A stretch of 64,000 nucleotides of DNA from Gordonibacter sp. 28C (GTDB taxonomy: Bacteria; Actinomycetota; Coriobacteriia; Coriobacteriales; Eggerthellaceae): positions 1 to 64,000 of the forward strand of contig NZ_PPTR01000001.1 in NCBI RefSeq assembly GCF_003339845.1, read 5' to 3'. The notes under the pieces are model-generated. The model saw only the letters and a program-made list of their open reading frames with translations. It did no database searches and had not been told where the DNA came from. A program made the translations under genes and the position numbers. Position 1 is the stretch's first letter, and every line of letters starts with the position of its first letter. Positions 24,029 to 34,621 of this stretch are shown here, one piece after another.

Positions 24029-24280
24029 TCACTTGCCTCCGTGTAGCTGCATGGCCAATACGGCTTTCACTCCTACCAAGGTGCAGGCGGCCACGGCCAC
24101 GGTGCCCGCCGCTGCCGCGCCGACGAGTTTTGCCACGGGTGCGAACGCCATGCTCGATCCCTCTGTCGTGCCCGCCGTCTTTTTCGGCGAAGGTGCGGAT
24201 TCCTCTCTGTTGATCAAACTGTCTATTCCGCGCCCCAGGGAGCCCGCGCTTGCATTGCTGTTGTCTTCGTATGGCATCAT
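24029..24280 (-). CDS. Small single-pass membrane protein (83 aa)
   Basis: The protein has a polar N-terminal half (MMPYEDNSNASAGSLGRG start) and one C-terminal membrane helix (LVGAAAAGTVAVAACTLVGVKAV). Its ATG overlaps the TGA of the DUF4405 gene (ATGA), and AAGGAGAAAGGAT is a good ribosome site. The last 13 codons overlap, in another frame, the coding-like extension of the VaFE protein, which suggests a rearranged junction. It probably belongs to the conjugative or surface module rather than to the flavodoxin island. Function is unknown. Confidence 0.6.
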   Translation of the reverse strand: MMPYEDNSNASAGSLGRGIDSLINREESAPSPKKTAGTTEGSSMAFAPVAKLVGAAAAGTVAVAACTLVGVKAVLAMQLHGGK

Positions 24281-25191
24281 AGATCCTTTCTCCTTGGTTG
24301 CTGTTCTTTCGAATAGGACCTCTCCGGTTTGCCTGCGTTTGCTCTCGTACTGGGAGCGTATGGGTTTTTTGGGCGCCGGGTTGGAAAGCCGCCTCGCTTG
24401 CATTCACCAGAAACATGCTTTTCGTCGTCTTCGCAGTTGGATTGCGTGTGTTTCCGGGCGATTGTGCGCAACAGCGTCGCGGCTCCGTGCGCAAGCGCTG
24501 CCAACAGGAACCCCGTCGAAGCGTATCGTGCGGCTGTCAAGAGGGGCGGTACCGTAGGGTCAACGAATACGAATTGGCTCCGCATCAGCAGGTACGTTGC
24601 CAGATCGAGCTGAACGAACGACCATGCTCCGGCACAGGCGACGACGACAGCGGCTGCCCGCACAATCCACGTTATTGCGCCGCTGCGCCGTCTAAACGCG
24701 AGGGAGGCGCCAGAGAAGTGCAACCCTGCATGAACCGATGCCAAGGCGAACGCCCAGTACGAGCCCGCCATGTGCACGATACGCGCCCACCATGCGCCGT
24801 CGAAAGCAGGAAGCCAGCCCAGTGCGTATTTCGAAAGCACCAGGCACGAGGCGGCCTGCCCGATCATGCAGAGCGCGAGGCACAGGTTCACGATTGTCGT
24901 CAGCATGCGCACGGCGTTGTAACGGCCCTTGAAAAGGTGCGCCCACCAACGCCGGTTCAGCGCCTGATGGACGACGAACAGTGCAAAGGCCGCCATTCCA
25001 AGCCATTCGTGGGCGAATTCCTCCACAGTTGCCGTGGCCATGAGCGCCACGAACACGCCCGCCAGTCCAAGATCGACCGCGACTTTCAGCACCCGACGAG
25101 CCTCGCTGCGTCCGCACCTGCGTTTGTCGGGCATGGAAAAGCGCTTCGGGGCGGTTCGGATGGCCGCCTGAGGTTTTCTGGAGCCCGTCAT
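24277..25191 (-). CDS. DUF4405 six-helix membrane protein (probable b-haem)
   Basis: Six membrane helices can be seen. His residues lie in pairs about 14 apart within helices 2 and 4 (HEWLGMAAFALFVVH and HMAGSYWAFALASVH), the usual haem-b arrangement of this cytochrome-like family. The ATG overlaps the stop of the FGE/flavodoxin gene (ATGA), so the two are made together; a related DUF4405 domain is fused to a flavodoxin at 31529-33010. The C-terminal about 60 residues are basic and unlike the rest, and run into the ribosome site of the next gene. They may be readthrough across an element junction. Confidence 0.78.
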   Translation of the reverse strand: MTGSRKPQAAIRTAPKRFSMPDKRRCGRSEARRVLKVAVDLGLAGVFVALMATATVEEFAHEWLGMAAFALFVVHQALNRRWWAHLFKGRYNAVRMLTTIVNLCLALCMIGQAASCLVLSKYALGWLPAFDGAWWARIVHMAGSYWAFALASVHAGLHFSGASLAFRRRSGAITWIVRAAAVVVACAGAWSFVQLDLATYLLMRSQFVFVDPTVPPLLTAARYASTGFLLAALAHGAATLLRTIARKHTQSNCEDDEKHVSGECKRGGFPTRRPKNPYAPSTRANAGKPERSYSKEQQPRRKDL

Positions 25192-26684
25192 GCAAGCCCG
25201 TTTCGTTCGAGCCAGGCGGAAACGTCGGACGCCAAGCTCGAGCCGCCCGAATAGTGCACCGACAAGCCTTCGCCGAGCGAGGCGCGCTGGGCCAGCTTGG
25301 AGATCGCCGATACGCTTTGACCGAACCGACCGCCGCCATGGCTGCAAAACGGCACGATGGCTTTTCCCGAAAAGTCGTAGCTTTCCAAAAAGGATGCGAT
25401 GGGCATGGGAATAGATGCCCACCAGTTGGGATATCCAAGAAGGACGGCGCTGTAGCGGCCCATATCGTCGATGCGCGAAGCCAGCGCGGGGCGTGCCTGG
25501 GAATTTTGGTCGCGCTGCGCCTCTTCGAGAACCGTGTTGTAGTCCGACGAGTACGGATGCTCGCATTCCAGCTCCACGGCGTCGAAGCCCGTCTGACGTA
25601 CGATCTCCTGCGCGATACCGCGCGTGTTGCCGCCCCAAGAGAAGAAGACAACCAGCGCTTCGCCGCCGAACGTTTGCGCAGTCGTTTCCGCTGATCCTAT
25701 CGCACCCGCCCGCGCCCGCGCGCTGCGGGCAACGCGGAAGCCGACGCTAGGGCTTGCGCCGTCGGCGGGCAGGGCGGCTCGATAGGCGCTGCGCAGGCTC
25801 TTGGCGAAATCGTTCCACCCGCCTCCGCGGTTCACGCGCAAAGCGCCCGACGGGGCACCCGTGGGGTCGATCTGCGGTTCTGCGTCATAGGAGCCGTATC
25901 GGTCCCATACCCATTCGGCCACGTTGCCGTGCATGTCGTAGAGCCCCCAGGCGTTCGGAGCAAAGCTCCCCGGCTCGATAGGCGTCTGGCGATACACGCC
26001 CGGGTGCGTATCCAGGTTTCCTTGCGAAAAGTAATTCTCCTCGATACCGTAGGGATAGGTGCCGTAGTAGTTCGCTTCGCTGTCGGCGCTGATAGACGTT
26101 TGCGTGTTGAAGGGGGTGGCCGTGCCGGCGCGGCAGGCGTACTCCCATTCGGCCTCCGTAGGCAGGCGGTAGCCGTCGGCCGACAGGTCCCATGTCACGG
26201 ACGCCCCGTCGATGACGTATGCGGGGGAGAGGTTCGCTTCTTCAGAAAGCGCGTTGCAATACGAAACCGCATCATGCCAAGTCACGTTTTCAACGGGCAG
26301 GTTCGACCCGACGAAGGCGCTCGGATTCGATCCCATGAGTCTTTCGTAGTCCGATTGCGTTGTCTCGTAGGGAGCCATGAAGAAATCCGATATCGTCGCT
26401 TCGTGGACGGTCTCGTCCTCGCCGCGCCAATTCTCGCTTTCCGGACTGCCCATAGCGAACGTTCCTCCAGGGATGGAGACGAACCCGTCTTGCACATCGA
26501 ATGCCGCTGTGTCGTTCATCGCACCGCCTTCATCTTCCAGGGCTTCGTCGCGGTTTTCCGTCGTCGCTGACCGCGGAATCCACGGAGAGCAGCCTATAAG
26601 ACCGAATCCGCCCGCAATTGCCGCACTGCCGAGGATGGCTCCCGCCTTCAAGAAAGCTCTTCTGGGGATGGCCGTCTCGCTCAC
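25188..26684 (-). CDS. Tat-exported FGE-fold/flavodoxin fusion lipoprotein
   Basis: A GTG at 26684 overlapping the upstream stop (GTGA) gives 498 aa. It begins with a Tat signal (RRAFLKAG) and a lipobox (LIGC). The next 260 residues are a formylglycine-generating-enzyme/SUMF fold: FVSIPGGTFAMGSP, LPTEAEWEYACRAG, NAWGLYDMHGNVAEWVWD, and GFRVAR at its end. The paired catalytic cysteines of true FGE are absent (RGGGWNDFAKSLRSAYR), so sulfatase activation is unlikely. A C-terminal flavodoxin follows (VVFFSWGGNTRGIA, LLGYPNWWASIP). An outside-facing flavoprotein is inferred. An upstream ATG at 26708 is possible. Confidence 0.82.
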   Translation of the reverse strand: MSETAIPRRAFLKAGAILGSAAIAGGFGLIGCSPWIPRSATTENRDEALEDEGGAMNDTAAFDVQDGFVSIPGGTFAMGSPESENWRGEDETVHEATISDFFMAPYETTQSDYERLMGSNPSAFVGSNLPVENVTWHDAVSYCNALSEEANLSPAYVIDGASVTWDLSADGYRLPTEAEWEYACRAGTATPFNTQTSISADSEANYYGTYPYGIEENYFSQGNLDTHPGVYRQTPIEPGSFAPNAWGLYDMHGNVAEWVWDRYGSYDAEPQIDPTGAPSGALRVNRGGGWNDFAKSLRSAYRAALPADGASPSVGFRVARSARARAGAIGSAETTAQTFGGEALVVFFSWGGNTRGIAQEIVRQTGFDAVELECEHPYSSDYNTVLEEAQRDQNSQARPALASRIDDMGRYSAVLLGYPNWWASIPMPIASFLESYDFSGKAIVPFCSHGGGRFGQSVSAISKLAQRASLGEGLSVHYSGGSSLASDVSAWLERNGLA

Positions 26685-27364
26685 CGCAGCCCCAAATCGC
26701 CGAGCCATGCGTCTACGCGATCGAGCTGGGAGGAAACGGTGTCGCCGTCGAGCGTGATGTTTCCGGAGATCGTCACGTTCGGGCACAGCGCCTCGATGTC
26801 GGGAACCGTGCCGGCTATGCTGCTTCCGCCGCTCGTGCCGAACACCACCACGTTCTTGCCCGCGAGATCGTGCTCAGTTACGAACGTCTTGATGATCTGG
26901 GGCACGTGGTACCACCACACGGGAAATCCCAGGTAGACGGTGCCGTAATCGTCCCAGTTCTCAACCGATGCCGCCAACGCAGGGCGATAGTCGTCGTCCT
27001 GCTCCCGCTGGGCGACGTCGAGCACCGCGTTGTAATCGCTCGTGTAAGGTTCTGCGGGCTCGATTCGGAAAAGATCGCTTTCCACCAGTTCGTGGATGCG
27101 CTCGGCGACCTGCAGCGTGTGCCCCGACCACGAGAAGACGGCGACAAGCGTTTTGGGGGAGGCGGGGGCATTTGCTTCGGGGGATGTCGCTGCAGTCGAA
27201 TCTCCCGATTGATCGGATGCGGCGTTCGGGGTGCCGCCGCGCGGTTCTGTGCTTTCGGCCGAGCAGCCGGCAATCGCCCCGCCTGCGAGCAGCGTCGCTC
27301 CTGCCGTTGCGGCGAGCCTGAGGAAGCGGCGGCGGTCGAGGCTCGTGACTGTTTGTTCTTGCAT
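26681..27364 (-). CDS. Tat-exported flavodoxin lipoprotein
   Basis: The 227-aa protein has a twin-arginine motif (DRRRFLRLA), a hydrophobic region and the lipobox IAGC. A linker rich in Ser, Ala and Pro and then a flavodoxin domain follow: FMN phosphate loop VFSWSGHTLQVAE, YLGFPVWWYHVP, and VVVFGTSGGSSIAG. Export by Tat is consistent with folding around FMN in the cytosol. TAGGAG precedes the ATG at 27364. It is coupled by a 4-base overlap to the FGE/flavodoxin gene. Classical flavodoxins are cytosolic, so an anchored external one is notable. Confidence 0.85.
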   Translation of the reverse strand: MQEQTVTSLDRRRFLRLAATAGATLLAGGAIAGCSAESTEPRGGTPNAASDQSGDSTAATSPEANAPASPKTLVAVFSWSGHTLQVAERIHELVESDLFRIEPAEPYTSDYNAVLDVAQREQDDDYRPALAASVENWDDYGTVYLGFPVWWYHVPQIIKTFVTEHDLAGKNVVVFGTSGGSSIAGTVPDIEALCPNVTISGNITLDGDTVSSQLDRVDAWLGDLGLR

Positions 27365-27425
27365 GGTGTGTCTCCTATTCATGTGTCCTTCGTTTCGGTG
27401 CCTCCGGGTGGGCGGGCGCCTGCTC

Positions 27426-27911
27426 CTACAGGCCGAGCCCGTCCGCCCACGAGCGCAGCGCCTTGTCCGACTGGCGTCCGTTGAGCATTTTGCCCGGACG
27501 CCAGTCGGTCTGCGCCGAGCAGCGCTTTTTCAGGATCGCTTCGGTGCCGCCCATGTCGCTGCCGCCCGATGTGGCGAAGGGCACGACGGTCTTGCCGGAG
27601 AAGTCATAGCTTTCCAAGAACGTTTCGATGATGCGCGGGGCAACGTACCACCAGATGGGAAAGCCCACGAAGACAACCTCGTAGTCGTCCATTCCGGCCA
27701 CCTTGCTTTTGATTTCAGGGCGGGCCGCCGCGTCGTTCATCTCCATCGAGCTGCGGCTTGAGCGATCGTTCCAGTTCAGATCGGCCGTCGAGTAGAGCCG
27801 TTCGGGCACGATCTCGTGCAGATCGGCGCCGACGGCTTCGGCAAGCGCCTTGGCCGCCCGCGCCGTCGTTCCGCTTGCCGAAAAGTATGCCACCAGTGTC
27901 TTCTTTCGCAT
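27426..27911 (-). CDS. Flavodoxin (cytosolic)
   Basis: The 161-aa protein has no signal. It shows the phosphate loop VAYFSASGTTARAAKALAE, the FMN-side motif VFVGFPIWWYVAPR and VVPFATSGGSDMGG, and ends QSDKALRSWADGLGL. This is the flavodoxin_4 subgroup, which often reduces quinones or small acceptors with a bound FMN. AAAGGA precedes the ATG at 27911. It is the only cytosolic member of the island. A decayed copy of its 3' end lies at 34649-34696. Confidence 0.88.
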   Translation of the reverse strand: MRKKTLVAYFSASGTTARAAKALAEAVGADLHEIVPERLYSTADLNWNDRSSRSSMEMNDAAARPEIKSKVAGMDDYEVVFVGFPIWWYVAPRIIETFLESYDFSGKTVVPFATSGGSDMGGTEAILKKRCSAQTDWRPGKMLNGRQSDKALRSWADGLGL

Positions 27912-28083
27912 GATGTTCCTTTCTTTGTTCGGTTGGCGTATCTTTCTATCCATCGGCTATGTGCTCGCCGTGGGCAGCGCCAGCAGGGGATGGCCGTCAA
28001 TGCCCTCGTCGTACCCAACGCCGTGCCGTCGTGCCTACCGCCATGGCGAATATGCCGATGAACGCTCCGAGCGTGGGTGCCTG

Positions 28084-29241
28084 CTAGCCTCGGTTCCGCA
28101 CGAGCCGCGAGCGGACGACGAGGCTTGCCGCGGACAGCACGACGAACGCGACGGAGGCGCCGACGGTGGCCTGCGGGCCGAAGGCCGCGAGGGCCGCGCC
28201 GCCCACCGCGGTTCCCAGGGTGATGCCGATGTTGCCGAACGAGATGAACAGCCCGTTGGCGAAGTCGGGCGCGTCGGGCATGGACGTGGAGGTCGCGAAC
28301 TGCTGGACGTTGTTGCCGAAGCCGTACGCCAGCCCCCACACGACGACGGCGGCGACGGCGAGCGGGAAGACATCGGCTCCGAAGTACAGAAGCAGGTAGA
28401 CGGCCAGCACGGCGACGGGGAAGGCGAGCAGCGTCGCCCGCGCCGCCTTCGAGAGCAGCCGCCCGGCCAGGTAGTTGCCCAGCAGGCTCGCCACGCCGAA
28501 TCCCAGCAGGAGGGCCGACTGCGCGTTCCCCTCTATGCCCATCACGTCGCCCAGGTACTCGGCGACGTAGGCGTACGTCGCGAAGATGGCCGCCTGGATG
28601 AAGGCGGTCGCGGCAAGCGACGCCACCGCGAGGGGGCTCTTGACCGACGACACCTGCTGCGCGTAGCTCATCTTCTGGGCGACGGGCATGGAGGGGACGA
28701 GCAGAAGCGTGCCGATGAACGTGACGACGTTGATGAGCGCGAACGCGATCATGACCGCTTGCACGGAGAGCGCGTTGGCCAGAAGGCTCGACAACGGCAC
28801 GCCCACCACCATTCCCAGCGACACGCCCATCATCACCTTCGAAGTGGCCTTGGGCGCCTCGCTTTCCGACACCGACGCCGCGGCCAGCGCGAACGCGGCG
28901 GAGCAGTACACCGGGTGGAGGAAGGCCGGCAGAACGCGGGCAGCGAGCGCCACCTCGAAGGTGGGAGCGAACGCGAACACGACGTTGCCGAGGGCGAACG
29001 CGCCCAGCACGACGAGCATCATCGTCTTACGGTTCACGCGCGAGAGCGCCGCGGGCAGCGTGGCTCCCGAGACGGCGACCGCGAGCGCGAACAGGCTCAC
29101 GAGCAGGCCGGCCTGCGCGAGGTCGATGCCGAACCGGGCGGCGATCTGGGGCAGGATGCCGATGATTCCCGTCTCGGTGCAGAGGATGCCGAACGTTCCT
29201 AAGAATAGAATGGGAACCAGGTAGTTCTTGTTGGATTTCAT
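28084..29241 (-). CDS. MFS transporter (AraJ/YdhP-like drug or sugar efflux)
   Basis: The 385-aa protein has twelve predicted helices. The first loop signature is GTFGILCTETGIIGILPQIAARFGID, and the loop 2-3 basic motif SRVNRKTMM matches the DHA1 arabinose/drug efflux subgroup. It lies on the same strand as the flavodoxin genes, between the cytosolic flavodoxin and the DUF362 lipoprotein, and is probably controlled with them. Its substrate may be the compound that the MerR regulator senses, but this is inference. 170 bases without a recognisable gene separate it from the flavodoxin. Confidence 0.85.
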   Translation of the reverse strand: MKSNKNYLVPILFLGTFGILCTETGIIGILPQIAARFGIDLAQAGLLVSLFALAVAVSGATLPAALSRVNRKTMMLVVLGAFALGNVVFAFAPTFEVALAARVLPAFLHPVYCSAAFALAAASVSESEAPKATSKVMMGVSLGMVVGVPLSSLLANALSVQAVMIAFALINVVTFIGTLLLVPSMPVAQKMSYAQQVSSVKSPLAVASLAATAFIQAAIFATYAYVAEYLGDVMGIEGNAQSALLLGFGVASLLGNYLAGRLLSKAARATLLAFPVAVLAVYLLLYFGADVFPLAVAAVVVWGLAYGFGNNVQQFATSTSMPDAPDFANGLFISFGNIGITLGTAVGGAALAAFGPQATVGASVAFVVLSAASLVVRSRLVRNRG

Positions 29242-29273: not shown

Positions 29274-30320
29274 CTAGTCTATGTCGATGAGGGTGTACGC
29301 TTGCGATCCAACGCCTATCGCTTCGGCATGGTCGAGCGCGTATGAGGCATGGCGCGATTCCATGCGCTCGACAAGCGCCTGGCCGTCTTCGGCCGCGTAC
29401 ACGAGATCGGTGCAGGCCCGGTCGAGGGCCACAGGATCGAGGGAAGCGAGGATGCCCACATCGGCCATGGCCGGTTCGGGAGGATACGACTGGCAGTCGC
29501 ATCCGACCGAGAGCCGGTTCATGACGTTGACGTAGACGATGCGCCCCTCGAAGTAGTCGGCGACGGACAATGCCGATTCCGCCAGCGCCTCGAGAAAGCT
29601 GTCCTGCGGCGTTTCGTCGAGCAGCCGGTCGCTGTCGCTGACCCCGGCGCTGTGGATGAGGCACTTGCCGGCTGCCGACGCGATCCCCACCGACATGTTC
29701 TTGAGCGCCCCTCCGAAGCCGTCCATGTGATGTCCCTTGAAATGCGACAAGACCATCATCGAGCGGTAGTTCGCCAAGTTCGCGCCCACCAGGTTCTCTT
29801 GGAGGCGCACGCCGTTGCGGACGGGCAGGCTCAAAGAGCCGTTTGCGTCCATGATGTCGACGTCGGCGAACGAGGTGAACCCGTGGTCGGCCGCAAGCTG
29901 AAGGTGGCTTTCCGTATCGCCGCGCGGCCCGGCGTAGGCGGTGTTGCATTCGGTGATGACGCCGTCGAGGGACTGCACGAAGCTTCCGATAAGCTCGGCG
30001 CGCAGGTAGTTGCTGCCCGCCTCGCCGGTGGACACCTTGACGGCCACGGGGCCCTCCAAGCTCGTTTCCAGCGCGCCGAAGGCTCGCGACAGCCCGTCGG
30101 GATCGATGCTCCGAGTCAGATAGACCCTGGGCGGCTCTTGTGCGGCTTGCTCGTCCAGAACCGCTTCGTCCTGCTCCGCAGCGTCGGGCGGATTCGGTTC
30201 GGAAGGCGCGTCTTCCGAACCATCGAGCTCGTCATCCGTCGTCGAGCAGCCAGCGAGGGTCGCAATGCCCGCTGCAGCCGCCCCCAGGATAAACGTTCGG
30301 CGATCGATGAGATTGTCCAT
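29274..30320 (-). CDS. DUF362 domain Tat lipoprotein
   Basis: The 348-aa protein has a Tat motif (DRRTFILGAAA) and a lipobox LAGC. An acidic linker (Glu/Asp/Pro-rich) and a DUF362 domain follow: VAVKVSTGEAGSNYLRAELIGSFVQ, SHFKGHHMDGFGGALKNMSVGIASAAGK and CDCQSYPPEP near the end. DUF362 proteins are often iron-sulfur associated and bacterial members accompany redox enzymes; the reaction is unknown. GAGGTT precedes the ATG. Its place among exported flavodoxins suggests a partner in the same extracytoplasmic electron path. Confidence 0.82.
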   Translation of the reverse strand: MDNLIDRRTFILGAAAAGIATLAGCSTTDDELDGSEDAPSEPNPPDAAEQDEAVLDEQAAQEPPRVYLTRSIDPDGLSRAFGALETSLEGPVAVKVSTGEAGSNYLRAELIGSFVQSLDGVITECNTAYAGPRGDTESHLQLAADHGFTSFADVDIMDANGSLSLPVRNGVRLQENLVGANLANYRSMMVLSHFKGHHMDGFGGALKNMSVGIASAAGKCLIHSAGVSDSDRLLDETPQDSFLEALAESALSVADYFEGRIVYVNVMNRLSVGCDCQSYPPEPAMADVGILASLDPVALDRACTDLVYAAEDGQALVERMESRHASYALDHAEAIGVGSQAYTLIDID

Positions 30321-30354
30321 GGTGAACCTCGTTTCTTCGCGGTCGGTCGTCGTT

Positions 30355-31473
30355 TTAGTTTTGGAAGCTTGCTTCAACGCGGCTGCCCATCGCATCGAAC
30401 GCCGCGAGGTCGGAGGTGACGCGTCCGATGGGGATCACTCCCATGGTGAGGTCGGGGTTGCTCGACTGCGAGAAGAAGAAGGCGACCGTGTTGTTCGTGG
30501 GACAGTAGGTGATCGCCCCGTCCTCGAACGAGAGGTCCCCCGTCTCGTCAGTTTCTATCGAGCCCTCGATGCTCCCGTAGTACTCGCGGTCGCCGTAGCG
30601 GACCATCGAGATCGTGCAGGGCATCATGGCTTGGAACGCGCGGGCCTCGGGAGTGTCGAACAGCACGCCCTCGATCGCCGTGCCGCCGATGTCGATGGAG
30701 ACCGGTGTTTCCCCGGCTTGCTGCGAGGGGCTCTCTTCCACGTGCGGTGCGCCGATGCTTTCGAGCCAGGCTACCACGTCGGTCTGCGAGCTTTGCACTT
30801 CCGCAGCGGGCACGGCCAGCCCTTCGAGTACCGTCGAAGCGGGGCACAACTCTCCGACGCGTGCAAAGCTCGATCCTTGGCCGTAGCCGTCGTGCGTGCA
30901 GAAGGGCACCACGGTCTTGCCCGACAGATCGTTCTCTGCCAGGAACGAGGCAGCGGCGTTGGGCGCGGTGGAGCTCCAGATGGGGAAGCCCAGGAACACC
31001 ACGTCGTACTGGTCCAGGTTGTCCACCGTATTCTGCAGAGGGGGCAGGTAGGGCGCATCGCGCTCCTCGTGCGCCGCGTCCACCGTTTCGTCGAAGTCCT
31101 CGGGATAGAGCTCGGACGTGCGCATCTGGAACAGGTCGCCCCCGGTGTAGGCGGCTACCTGGTCAGCGACGTACTCGGTGGTGCCGGTGATCTCGTCGCC
31201 CTGCACCACGACGCTCGCCGATGTCATGGTGTCCACGTCGCCGGTTTGCACGCTGTTCTCCCACCTGCTGAAGTAGGCGACCAGCACTTTGCTGTCCGAT
31301 GGTAGCTCGTCGGCTTTCCCGACCTGCTCGGCTTGCTCGGGTTCGGGAGCCTGCGTCGTCGGCTCGACAGCCGGGGCTCCGGTCTCCTCGCTTGCGCAGC
31401 CGGCAAGGGGCAGCGCGAGGCTGGCGGCGACGAGCAGGGGGAAGGGCTTGAAAGCGGTTGTCTTGCAGTTCAT
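30355..31473 (-). CDS. Lipoprotein with flavodoxin and cyclophilin-like domains
   Basis: The 372-aa protein has a Sec-type signal with lipobox LAGC and a Glu/Pro/Thr-rich linker. A flavodoxin of the long-loop kind follows (VAYFSRWENS, then an insert before GTTEYVADQVAA, then VVFLGFPIWSSTAP and VVPFCTHDGYG). The last about 110 residues (SIDIGGTAIEGVLFDTPEARAF, YYGSIEG, NTVAFFFSQ) are a cyclophilin-like domain, a small barrel often joined to such flavodoxins. The WW of related proteins is WS here. No Tat motif is clear, so the apo-form may be exported and loaded outside, or export is by another route. Confidence 0.82.
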   Translation of the reverse strand: MNCKTTAFKPFPLLVAASLALPLAGCASEETGAPAVEPTTQAPEPEQAEQVGKADELPSDSKVLVAYFSRWENSVQTGDVDTMTSASVVVQGDEITGTTEYVADQVAAYTGGDLFQMRTSELYPEDFDETVDAAHEERDAPYLPPLQNTVDNLDQYDVVFLGFPIWSSTAPNAAASFLAENDLSGKTVVPFCTHDGYGQGSSFARVGELCPASTVLEGLAVPAAEVQSSQTDVVAWLESIGAPHVEESPSQQAGETPVSIDIGGTAIEGVLFDTPEARAFQAMMPCTISMVRYGDREYYGSIEGSIETDETGDLSFEDGAITYCPTNNTVAFFFSQSSNPDLTMGVIPIGRVTSDLAAFDAMGSRVEASFQN

Positions 31474-31528: not shown

Positions 31529-33010
31529 TCAGGAAATATCCAAGCTGGCGATCCAGCTGTCGACGGCTTCCTCGGACGACGACGCGGTCTCGCGGCTTAT
31601 GCCCAAAGGGTCGAGCACTTGGGCGCCGGGCGCGGCTTCCCGAATCGCCTGCACGCTTCTTGCCAAGCCGCCCGTGCCGTGGACGCAGAAGGGGATCACG
31701 CTCTTGCCCGAGAAGTCGTGCTGCTCGAGAAACGAGAGCACGGCCATGGGGCAGGAGTACCACCAGTTGGGAAAGCCCAGGAAAACGACGTCGTATTCTT
31801 CCACGTCGATGTCGGTCCCCGTCAGTTCAGGCCGTGTTCCGGCATCGCTTTCCCGGATGGCGCGCTCCAGGCAGGCGTCGTAGTCGCTGGGGTAAGGCTC
31901 CTTTGCGACGATGGCGTAGAGGTCGCCGTTGGTCTCGTCCTGAACCTGCCGGGCGACGAGGCCGACGTTTCCGGGCGGCAACACGCTCGCTGTGGTCACG
32001 GCGTCGACGTCGAGAGCGCTTGGATCCTCGATGACGGCGTTGTCTGCCCAGGTGAAGTAAGCGACGAGGATGCGCGGCGCTTCGACGGCGACGGTTTGGG
32101 GGTCGGGTTGCGTCGTGTCCGAGCCAACGGGAGCGGAAGCGCTCGTCCATGTCGAGCTTTCCGACGACCACGTCGCCTGGCCCTCGCGCGCCGTCGCCAG
32201 TCTGCCTCCGACGATGAAGGCCGCAGAGAGGGCGATGAGCGCACCGGCGGCGGCAAGACGCGCTCCTGCGCCGAAGCGGCTCCGCTTGACGGCGATCCGC
32301 CGATCCGCTGCGGGCTGTTGCGATGGATCGGCGGCCGAGGGTCGAGGCGAGGCGAGCGCGCCCAGCGTGCATCCGAGGGCTGCGAAGAGCACCATCATCG
32401 AGGCGTAATCGAAGGCGAACAACGCAATCGGCGCATTGTAGTCCCAGAACGCGAACTGGCTGCGCAACGTCAGGTAGTCGACGATTCCGTGCTTTCCGAA
32501 CGCGAAAGCGCCGTAAGCGGCGTCGATCGCGACCAGCGCGCATGCGGCGATGCGAACTGCCGGGCGGGTCTTACCCGATGCCGACGGCTTCCGGAGTCGC
32601 GCGATGTTCAGGCCGAGATGCAGCGAGAACAGCACGAACGCCGCATAGGTTCCCGCCAAGTGGATAAGCCGGATGGTCGACATGCCCGCGATCTCGGGCA
32701 GGGCGGCAAGCCCTATCGGCGACATGAGGATTCCGCTTGCCGGCACCGCGACCAGCGCGGCCAGCCCGAGGAAGACCGCCGCCGCCCGCACGATGCGCAG
32801 GACGAACCAGCGCCCCCGCGCAAGCTGCGCGAACCAAGACCGGTTGAGGACGATGTGGGCGATCGCAAGCGCCGCGAAGGCGATGCCGATCCAGAGATGC
32901 AGCGTGTCGCCCGTGAAGGGGTAGCACATTTGCGCCATAAGGGCGCTGGTCATAAGGACGTCGAGCGCGAAGCGCAGGCGACGGAGAGGGGCTGGGCGTG
33001 GCTTCGTCAT
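31529..33010 (-). CDS. DUF4405 membrane cytochrome fused to flavodoxin
   Basis: The 493-aa protein begins with six membrane helices of the DUF4405 type. Paired His residues lie 14 apart (HLWIGIAFAALAIAH and HLAGTYAAFVLFSLH). A basic cytosolic loop, a seventh helix (AAAGALIALSAAFIVGG) and a Ser/Thr-rich linker come next. A flavodoxin domain follows (VAYFTWADNA with a long loop, VVFLGFPNWWYSCP, VIPFCVHGTGG). With the N-terminus inside, seven helices put the flavodoxin outside. The separately encoded pair at 24277-26684 is the split version, which supports direct contact between the cytochrome and the flavodoxins. Confidence 0.85.
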   Translation of the reverse strand: MTKPRPAPLRRLRFALDVLMTSALMAQMCYPFTGDTLHLWIGIAFAALAIAHIVLNRSWFAQLARGRWFVLRIVRAAAVFLGLAALVAVPASGILMSPIGLAALPEIAGMSTIRLIHLAGTYAAFVLFSLHLGLNIARLRKPSASGKTRPAVRIAACALVAIDAAYGAFAFGKHGIVDYLTLRSQFAFWDYNAPIALFAFDYASMMVLFAALGCTLGALASPRPSAADPSQQPAADRRIAVKRSRFGAGARLAAAGALIALSAAFIVGGRLATAREGQATWSSESSTWTSASAPVGSDTTQPDPQTVAVEAPRILVAYFTWADNAVIEDPSALDVDAVTTASVLPPGNVGLVARQVQDETNGDLYAIVAKEPYPSDYDACLERAIRESDAGTRPELTGTDIDVEEYDVVFLGFPNWWYSCPMAVLSFLEQHDFSGKSVIPFCVHGTGGLARSVQAIREAAPGAQVLDPLGISRETASSSEEAVDSWIASLDIS

Positions 33011-33015
33011 CGCTT

Positions 33016-33978
33016 TTACCGGTAGTCGAAGCCGATGATGTCTTCGTCGGTGCGGTTGCCGTGGATCTCGATGCGGGAGAGTTCACCTTCGATGCGCGCG
33101 ATGTCGTCGGAGGACAGCTTGACGTCGCAGGCGCCGAAGTTCTCGTCGAAGCGCGCGATGCTTCTCATGCCCGGGATGGGCACGATGAAGCCTTCCTTGC
33201 ATAGCATCCAGGCCAGCGCGATCTGCGCGGGCGTCGCCTCGTGCTCGCCGGCGATGCGGTGGAGCAGGTCGAGCAGCGGCTGGTTGGCGCGGATGTTCTC
33301 CTTCTTGTAGCGCGTGATGGCCCGTCGCACGTCGTCCCCCACGAACACGTCGCGCTCGGTGTACTTGCCGCTCAGGAATCCTTCGCCGAGCGGCGAGAAC
33401 GGCACGAAACCGATGCCCAGCTCCTTGCAGGCGGGGATGACGTCGCGCTCGAACATGCGCTCCATCATCGAGTACTCGCTCTGCACGGCGGTCAGCGGCG
33501 TGACGGCGTGCGCGCGACGCACTTCGTCCTCGCTGGATTGGGACTGCCCCCACCCCCGGATCTTTCCTTCGGCGATGAGCTCGCCCATGACCACGGCCAC
33601 GTCTTCAGCTGGGACGGTCTTATTCATGCGGTGCTGGTAGTACACGTCGACGTAGTCGGTTTGCAGACGCTTGAGGGATGCGTCGAGGTGTTGGCGCACG
33701 GCCTTGCCCAGGTCGTCGGGGTTTTCTGGGATGTGCAGCTTCGTGGCCAGCACGATGTCGCCGCGGAAGGGCTTCACGGCTTCACCCACCAGCTCCTCGT
33801 TCGCTCCCTTCGCGTAGCCCTCGGCCGTATCGAAGAAGGTGCATCCCTTGTCGTGAGCCGCCCTGATCAGCTTGATCGCTTCGTCGTGCTCCGGCGCGGG
33901 GCCGTGGCCGTGGCTGAACCCCATGCATCCCAGCCCCATGGCCGATACTTCCAGCGTTCCGATCTTTCTTTTCTCCAT
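33016..33978 (-). CDS. Aldo/keto reductase
   Basis: The 320-aa protein is a full-length AKR. Visible features are GLGCMGFSHGHG near the start, TFFDTAEGYAKGANEELVGEA with the catalytic Asp and Tyr, TKLH with Lys, YVDVYYQHRMNK with His and the C-terminal NADPH-binding IPGMRSIARFDENFGA. It resembles the YghZ/AKR13-like group that reduces aldehydes and small carbonyls. The ATG at 33978 follows GGGAGTG and is preferred over 33990. It is first in the minus-strand run of genes and divergent from MerR, so it probably carries the regulated promoter. Confidence 0.88.
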   Translation of the reverse strand: MEKRKIGTLEVSAMGLGCMGFSHGHGPAPEHDEAIKLIRAAHDKGCTFFDTAEGYAKGANEELVGEAVKPFRGDIVLATKLHIPENPDDLGKAVRQHLDASLKRLQTDYVDVYYQHRMNKTVPAEDVAVVMGELIAEGKIRGWGQSQSSEDEVRRAHAVTPLTAVQSEYSMMERMFERDVIPACKELGIGFVPFSPLGEGFLSGKYTERDVFVGDDVRRAITRYKKENIRANQPLLDLLHRIAGEHEATPAQIALAWMLCKEGFIVPIPGMRSIARFDENFGACDVKLSSDDIARIEGELSRIEIHGNRTDEDIIGFDYR

Positions 33979-34111
33979 GATCACTCCCATCCGTTGGCGT
34001 TGCCCAGGGTGCCCTTCGAAGGTTGCCTCCGTCGTGCCTCGCTGCTGCGGACTTTACGAATCCGATGCGACGCGGTACGATACGTCCGTAAGCTTATAGT
34101 TGGATGCTAAA

Positions 34112-34168: not shown

Positions 34169-34621
34169 ATGCTCTACACCATCGGGGATGCTGCGAAAAA
34201 GATGGGGCTCTCCGCATCGACGCTGCGTTACTACGATAAAGAAGGGCTGTTGCCCCATATGAACCGCAGCGGCAGCGGCATGCGCATGTTCGGGGAGGAC
34301 GATCTCGAATGGATTCAATTCATCGAGCGCTTGAAGAAATCGGGGCTCACCATCAAGGAAATCAAGCAGTTCGTCGATTGGTACCTCGAAGGGGACGGCA
34401 CCATCGAGCAGCGTCGGAGCATGTTCCACGCGCGCAAGCAGGCGCTTGAGGAGGAGATGGCGAAGTTGCAGCACACGCTCGACTTCATCACTTACAAGTG
34501 TTGGTTCTACGACAAGGCGCTCGAAGCGGGATCCACCGAGGTTCCCCATTCGATGGATCCCGCGGACATGCCACCCGATATCCGCGAAATTAAGGAGCGC
34601 TGCGGGGTCAACCGCTATTGA
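34169..34621 (+). CDS. MerR-family regulator of the redox island
   Basis: Residues 1-70 are the MerR winged helix (MLYTIGDAAKKMGLSASTLRYYDKEGLLPH start, MRMFGEDDLEWIQFI). The dimer helix and a C-terminal region follow, ending in GSTEVPHSM...EIKERCGVNRY. Cys residues are few (TYKCWFYDK and a C-terminal Cys), and the 150-aa length fits the NmlR/AdhR-type subgroup, which senses electrophiles or aldehydes and often controls alcohol or aldehyde reductases. Divergence from the aldo/keto reductase agrees with this; the inducer is inferred, not shown. Confidence 0.87.
   Translation: MLYTIGDAAKKMGLSASTLRYYDKEGLLPHMNRSGSGMRMFGEDDLEWIQFIERLKKSGLTIKEIKQFVDWYLEGDGTIEQRRSMFHARKQALEEEMAKLQHTLDFITYKCWFYDKALEAGSTEVPHSMDPADMPPDIREIKERCGVNRY

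Follow-up and report, generated by a model that had tools for sequence, protein, structure and literature searches.

DUF4405 cytochromes that feed extracytosolic Flavodoxin_4 proteins encoded by separate genes have already been described by Huang, Meheust, Barquera and Light (2024; PMC11334425). That paper reports haem B binding by one purified DUF4405 protein, from Oscillospiraceae, and states a likeness of DUF4405 to MsrQ and PepSY proteins. It also describes the clustering of DUF4405 genes with Flavodoxin_4 proteins that carry an ApbE motif and, for two proteins in which this motif lies in an insertion between the first strand and the first helix, covalent attachment of FMN upon co-expression with ApbE. 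Searches of the open-access literature listed no published fusion of DUF4405 to a flavodoxin.

Here we examine a 64,000-nucleotide stretch of DNA from Gordonibacter sp. 28C, a member of the Eggerthellaceae (contig NZ_PPTR01000001.1, positions 1 to 64,000; hereafter the window), in which the two domains are encoded by a single gene (31529-33010, minus strand). Its product shares both domains, the four histidines, the six-helix core, the position of the motif loop and the predicted extracytosolic placement with the DUF4405/Flavodoxin_4 system of PMC11334425, but it is one chain with a seventh helix where that system has two genes, and its gene cluster lacks apbE. What is new is this one-chain form, together with an FGE-containing counterpart in Clostridia and the mixture, near the same cytochromes, of flavodoxins with the ApbE motif and flavodoxins exported by Tat.

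A cytochrome and a flavodoxin in one chain

The preliminary description had read 31529-33010 as a DUF4405 cytochrome and a flavodoxin in one chain, and the fusion is confirmed: translation gives a single frame of 493 residues with no internal stop, and both Pfam domains score over their cut-offs when the protein is searched singly. Flavodoxin_4 reaches 92.4 bits against a cut-off of 24 (residues 349-487) and DUF4405 28.0 bits against 26.7, best at residues 81-135; in the genome-wide search the latter scored 22.2 bits, below the cut-off. The chain, on the minus strand throughout, comprises the DUF4405 part (residues 1-220, 32351-33010), with six membrane helices predicted from an AlphaFold2 model and conservation in 28 aligned rows, then a linker with a seventh membrane helix, TM7 (32141-32350; about residues 252-269 by hydropathy and flanking charge), and finally the Flavodoxin_4 domain (residues 306-493, 31532-32095). 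A frameshift artefact was considered and rejected on the evidence of this one genome of its species, since the junction holds no remnant start or stop: residues 226-262 contain no in-frame start codon, neither protein continues there in the other two frames, and third-position G+C is coding-like throughout (0.84 in the cytochrome, 0.76 in the linker and TM7, 0.83 in the flavodoxin). The gene therefore does not look like a recent artefact of this kind. The opposite strand also carries a long open frame, as is frequent at 63% G+C.

AlphaFold2 places helices at residues 7-28, 30-55, 70-96, 110-139, 150-173, 195-220 and 234-288 of a model covering residues 1-290 and built on 28 aligned rows (mean pLDDT 82.8, falling to 63-73 in blocks around the seventh helix). 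The six-helix feature of DUF4405 cytochromes is thus present, with one helix added, and the count of seven agrees with the earlier prediction. Lysine and arginine are distributed unevenly across the model, with 18 over the four segments assigned inside (5, 3, 4 and 6) and 3 over the three outside loops (0, 1 and 2). This charge distribution, together with the seven helices, puts the flavodoxin outside the cell in the predicted topology, as the preliminary description had proposed. The same asymmetry marks the helix that precedes the outside domains in all five fused chains found in this work: 6-9 K/R lie in the 30 residues leading into it and 0-2 after it.

Could TM7 be exported by the Tat route? 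Some membrane proteins, among them the actinobacterial Rieske protein, are targeted by both Sec and Tat, and the stretch DRRIAVK prompted us to consider an internal Tat signal before TM7. A twin-arginine motif at this place is not conserved across the five fused chains: RR precedes TM7 in two of them (G000, DRRIAVK; G030, TRRAACA), neither fitting the usual consensus, and in none of the three that contain an FGE domain. We rejected dual targeting because the motif is not conserved and because the ApbE motif offers a simpler account.

The four conserved DUF4405 histidines are all present in the fused protein, and none of them varies across 20 family rows or across the A3 alignment of 28 rows. 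His38 (32897-32899) and His117 (32660-32662) lie near the outer face of the membrane, His52 (32855-32857) and His131 (32618-32620) near the inner face; by analogy with the DUF4405 proteins of PMC11334425, we infer that each pair would ligate a haem. At least 90% of A3 rows have a fifth histidine where the fused protein has N135, a replacement that may matter little. MsrQ, PepSY-like and cytochrome b561-type two-haem cytochromes likewise carry two histidine pairs on the helices of a helical bundle, yet no solved structure is significantly similar in sequence to the cytochrome half: the A3 profile matched no solved chain at E up to 1. The structural matches are weak as well. Foldseek returned nothing at E < 0.001, and VIA-align mixed haem A synthase, hydrogenase cytochrome b, formate dehydrogenase gamma subunit and cytochrome b561 with ion channels at equal Z.

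The flavodoxin half is modelled with a pLDDT of 92.6, and its best Foldseek matches are 4ici, 4j8p and 3klb; the FMN-bound 3klb and 3edo are among the best, and azoreductases and quinone reductases of flavodoxin-like fold also appear. With 3klb, 4j8p and 4ici, non-covalent Flavodoxin_4 proteins from Bacteroides, it has in common the fold and the surroundings of the FMN site. Those proteins represent a short-loop form, whereas the fused flavodoxin has about 25 extra residues in the motif loop and a membrane tether. In an alignment of the cluster's flavodoxins, these residues, inserted between the first strand and the first helix, occur in the fused protein (DAVTTAS) and in the product of 30355-31473 (DTMTSAS), and the other three flavodoxins are without them. 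If DAVTTAS (residues 336-342, 31985-32005) is read by the usual form of the ApbE motif, Ser342 is the predicted attachment residue. Because the loop carries this motif, the FMN is probably covalent. The loop's position also corresponds to that given in PMC11334425. The nearest NCBIfam model for both the fused and the cyclophilin-linked flavodoxin is PRK06934, at a score below its cut-off. A search of the organism's own genome found two ApbE genes, neither of which lies in this cluster or elsewhere on the same contig. One of the two has a lipoprotein-type signal by eye and follows a set of Rnf genes (L171:1-5468).

The gene cluster, the split pair and their relatives

The fused gene stands second in a minus-strand run whose members were assigned by Pfam and inspection of signals and motifs. 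The run begins with an aldo/keto reductase (33016-33990), which ends 5 bases short of the start of the fused gene, and continues past the fusion with the second ApbE-motif flavodoxin, which is joined to a Cyclophil_like2 domain and has a non-Tat lipoprotein signal (30355-31473), a DUF362 protein with a Tat-like lipoprotein signal by eye (29274-30395), an MFS transporter (28084-29241), a flavodoxin without a signal, taken as cytosolic (27426-27953), a flavodoxin that is a Tat lipoprotein and lacks the motif loop (26681-27382), an FGE-Flavodoxin_4 Tat lipoprotein that lacks it too (25188-26684), and a second DUF4405 gene (24277-25191). A MerR-type regulator diverges from the run on the plus strand (34169-34621).

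The last two genes form a split pair, and the four-base overlap reported for them earlier is there: the start of 24277-25191 sits within the stop of 25188-26684 (GCATGACGG). Measured against the 26.7-bit cut-off, this DUF4405 falls short as a single protein (23.2 bits) and passes in the genome search (27.5 bits). The coupling extends over three genes (24277-27382), two Tat flavodoxin lipoproteins and the DUF4405 protein, through four-base overlaps of GTGA (26681-26684) and ATGA (25188-25191). Most DUF4405 genes are not paired with a flavodoxin. In the organism's own genome two of the five are flavodoxin partners; the others (L001, L002, L003) have no Flavodoxin_4 match nearby, and two of them lie in short frames (151 and 161 residues). 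Several exported flavodoxins with differing fused domains are also encoded in this genome. DUF362 genes occur near DUF4405-flavodoxin genes in seven of the 24 contig loci listed (L185, L191, L201, L204, L206, L212, L219) and in the family loci L079, L100 and L139.

How widespread is the one-chain form? Some match to the fused protein was found in 93 of 138 genomes of the family and, among the matches listed, a near-full-length one in two: the organism's own and G030, a second DUF4405-flavodoxin fusion from another genus with 34% identity. Across the phylum, 28 of 396 genomes had a match, full-length only in the organism's own. A pattern scan of GTDB contigs gave at least 586 stretches, of which the best 80 were kept as loci. 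No plain DUF4405-flavodoxin fusion was found among these 80, and three of them (L189, L203, L217), all from Clostridia, hold DUF4405, FGE and Flavodoxin_4 in one frame. These three chains have the same layout as the fused protein, with six helices, TM7 and outside domains ending in Flavodoxin_4, but they include an FGE domain and have no ApbE motif; they correspond to the window's split pair joined into one chain and are not orthologues of the fused gene. The preliminary description had argued from one fusion and one coupled pair that these domains touch and exchange electrons, and with G030 and the three FGE-containing chains this gene-fusion logic becomes stronger than was claimed.

Among the matches listed, the fused flavodoxin has its closest relatives in lipoproteins from Clostridia and Brachyspira that are encoded as proteins of their own, several of them beside DUF4405 genes. 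Trees place it in a clade of 16 rows (support 0.995 and 100) whose other members come from Firmicutes and Brachyspira. All 16 have motif-like sequences, a label for which the motif pattern was extended to admit proline, because four of the rows read DAVTSPS and similar. In the contig set (best 80 of at least 586 loci), 8 of 37 motif flavodoxins adjoin a DUF4405 gene, and at L182, L184 and L195 a DUF4405 gene is followed by a motif-lipoprotein gene with an ATGA or GTGA overlap. Such a coupled pair may have become one gene, the lipoprotein signal turning into the seventh helix. We propose this step with reserve, because in the tree the DUF4405 half of the fused gene falls apart from the DUF4405s encoded next to the closest relatives of its flavodoxin. 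An independent origin of the two family fusions was also considered; trees that hold the two together are not rejected for the cytochrome (p-AU 0.24) or the flavodoxin (p-AU 0.43). Two further arrangements came to light in these loci. An apbE-like gene lies directly 3' of a motif flavodoxin at L185:6651 and L189:8166, and L121:2688-4652 (minus strand) joins an N-terminal hydrophobic signal, Big_2, Flavodoxin_4 and an aldo/keto reductase in one frame, apparently an exported flavodoxin-aldo/keto reductase chain.

Tat and motif flavodoxins

The earlier interpretation was right in outline, and it overlooked that the two flavodoxins concerned differ in sort, one having the motif loop and the other being a Tat protein without it. 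It also missed that the pairing had been in print since 2024 for separate genes. PMC11334425 describes extracytosolic members as flavinylated; the window's Tat lipoproteins, one of which lies beside the second DUF4405 gene, are without the motif. Does one feature exclude the other? The regions fetched from the family hold 147 flavodoxins, and the motif is present in none of the 72 Tat proteins, one of the five separate proteins exported otherwise, both of the fused proteins and none of the 68 without a signal. Non-Tat exported proteins thus carry it in 3 of 7 cases vs 0 of 72 for Tat (Fisher p 0.0004, kinship ignored). In this family set, L159 and L084 2918-3622 were reassigned by hand to Tat and L077 to no signal; L005 and L007 (truncated copies of genes in the window), two partial family-set matches and five rows of the other set were dropped before counting.

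The mostly Firmicutes contig set of 156, drawn from the best 80 of at least 586 loci, gives another picture. Of its 88 non-Tat exported flavodoxins, 34 have the motif and 54 do not, and it is absent from all three FGE fusions, so a flavodoxin can lack the motif without being exported by Tat. That Tat replaces ApbE was accordingly rejected as a general law, and the exclusion is at most a feature of the Eggerthellaceae. Three Tat calls in this set are not trusted: that of L183, with the motif, because it depends on an unlikely alternative start at KR, and those of L184 5233-6459 and L219 271-2436, without it. For the family, we put forward only tentatively, and with some doubt, that extracellular flavodoxins are supplied by DUF4405 cytochromes along two mutually exclusive routes, one in which Tat would export a folded, FMN-loaded flavodoxin that needs no covalent bond and one in which unfolded export, as a lipoprotein or in a fusion, would go with the ApbE motif and the attachment of FMN outside. 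A flavodoxin joined to a membrane protein of several helices would be barred from the Tat route and would then call for ApbE.

In the family regions, 16 of 77 exported separate flavodoxins stand beside a DUF4405 gene vs 2 of 68 signal-less ones (p 0.0009), a count that covers only DUF4405 genes within these regions, since they were fetched for holding a flavodoxin. Genome-wide, 120 of the 138 family genomes have a DUF4405 match and 96 an ApbE match. In five genomes (G072, G090, G118, G119 and G121, the last 71% complete) a DUF4405 gene neighbours a flavodoxin that is exported or putative, and none of the five belongs to the 96; in G072 and G090 the partners of DUF4405 are Tat flavodoxins, which fits the two-route reading. 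Three Tat flavodoxins (L091:9292-10170, L123:9386-10198, L127:8444-9340) have a motif-type insert with EEENSAV at the position of the ApbE motif, and these may have lost the attachment residue or never had it.

A probable outward electron relay and its alternatives

What might the fused protein do? We consider it probable that it is a one-chain transmembrane electron relay that leads outward, from haems to an ApbE-attached FMN outside the cell. The six helices would hold two b haems, the inner bound by His52 and His131 and the outer by His38 and His117. The seventh helix, probably once the export signal of a separate flavodoxin lipoprotein, would bring the C-terminal flavodoxin outside, where ApbE would attach FMN to Ser342. 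Supplied by a cytosolic donor or the quinol pool, electrons would then pass to the inner haem, the outer haem and the tethered FMN, which would hand them on to the cluster's other extracellular flavodoxins or directly to a small acceptor. For this protein we infer the haem, the covalent FMN, the contact of the domains and the electron transfer, as well as its outward direction, donor and acceptor. The reading draws support from the Pfam domains, the four invariant histidines, the topology, the flavodoxin fold, the motif clade and the two ApbE genes, and from the coupled DUF4405/motif-lipoprotein genes of L182, L184 and L195 together with the haem B and covalent FMN reported in PMC11334425. Counted against it are the lack of an ApbE gene in the cluster and on the contig, the grouping of the DUF4405 half, the weak structural matches of the cytochrome, the low pLDDT at TM7, and N135.

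A different end point is conceivable, in which the fused flavodoxin is itself a terminal reductase for small extracellular acceptors, such as quinones, azo or nitro compounds and flavins, and its neighbours are paralogues that act on other substrates instead of downstream partners. A self-contained fusion could do without a soluble partner, the genome has several exported flavodoxins with different fused domains, and azoreductases and quinone reductases are among the Foldseek matches, but the closest matches are small Flavodoxin_4 proteins rather than these enzymes, and clusters in the family usually hold several flavodoxins together, so we regard this as unlikely. Sequence cannot give direction, and electrons could in principle flow inward, from an extracellular donor through the flavodoxin and the cytochrome to the quinone pool; Eggerthellaceae are known for quinol-linked extracellular reductases, which counts against such a flow and leaves it improbable. 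PMC11334425 and PMC8238504 also read systems of this type as outward. We give still less credence to a flavodoxin that stays inside, with only six helices crossing and electrons delivered to a cytosolic domain: confidence in the model is lowest at the seventh helix, which is moderately hydrophobic, but the charge pattern contradicts this arrangement, and the ApbE motif and the lipoprotein relatives make sense only outside.

Should the fused protein be the outward relay we propose, haems and FMN would lie in a single chain, and transfer from a DUF4405 cytochrome to an extracellular flavodoxin would become measurable on one purified protein, beyond what can be concluded from gene neighbourhoods. 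The Tat flavodoxins without the motif qualify the statement of PMC11334425 that extracytosolic Flavodoxin_4 proteins are flavinylated. With motif and Tat flavodoxins side by side in one cluster, this locus provides a natural comparison of two ways of keeping flavin outside the cell.
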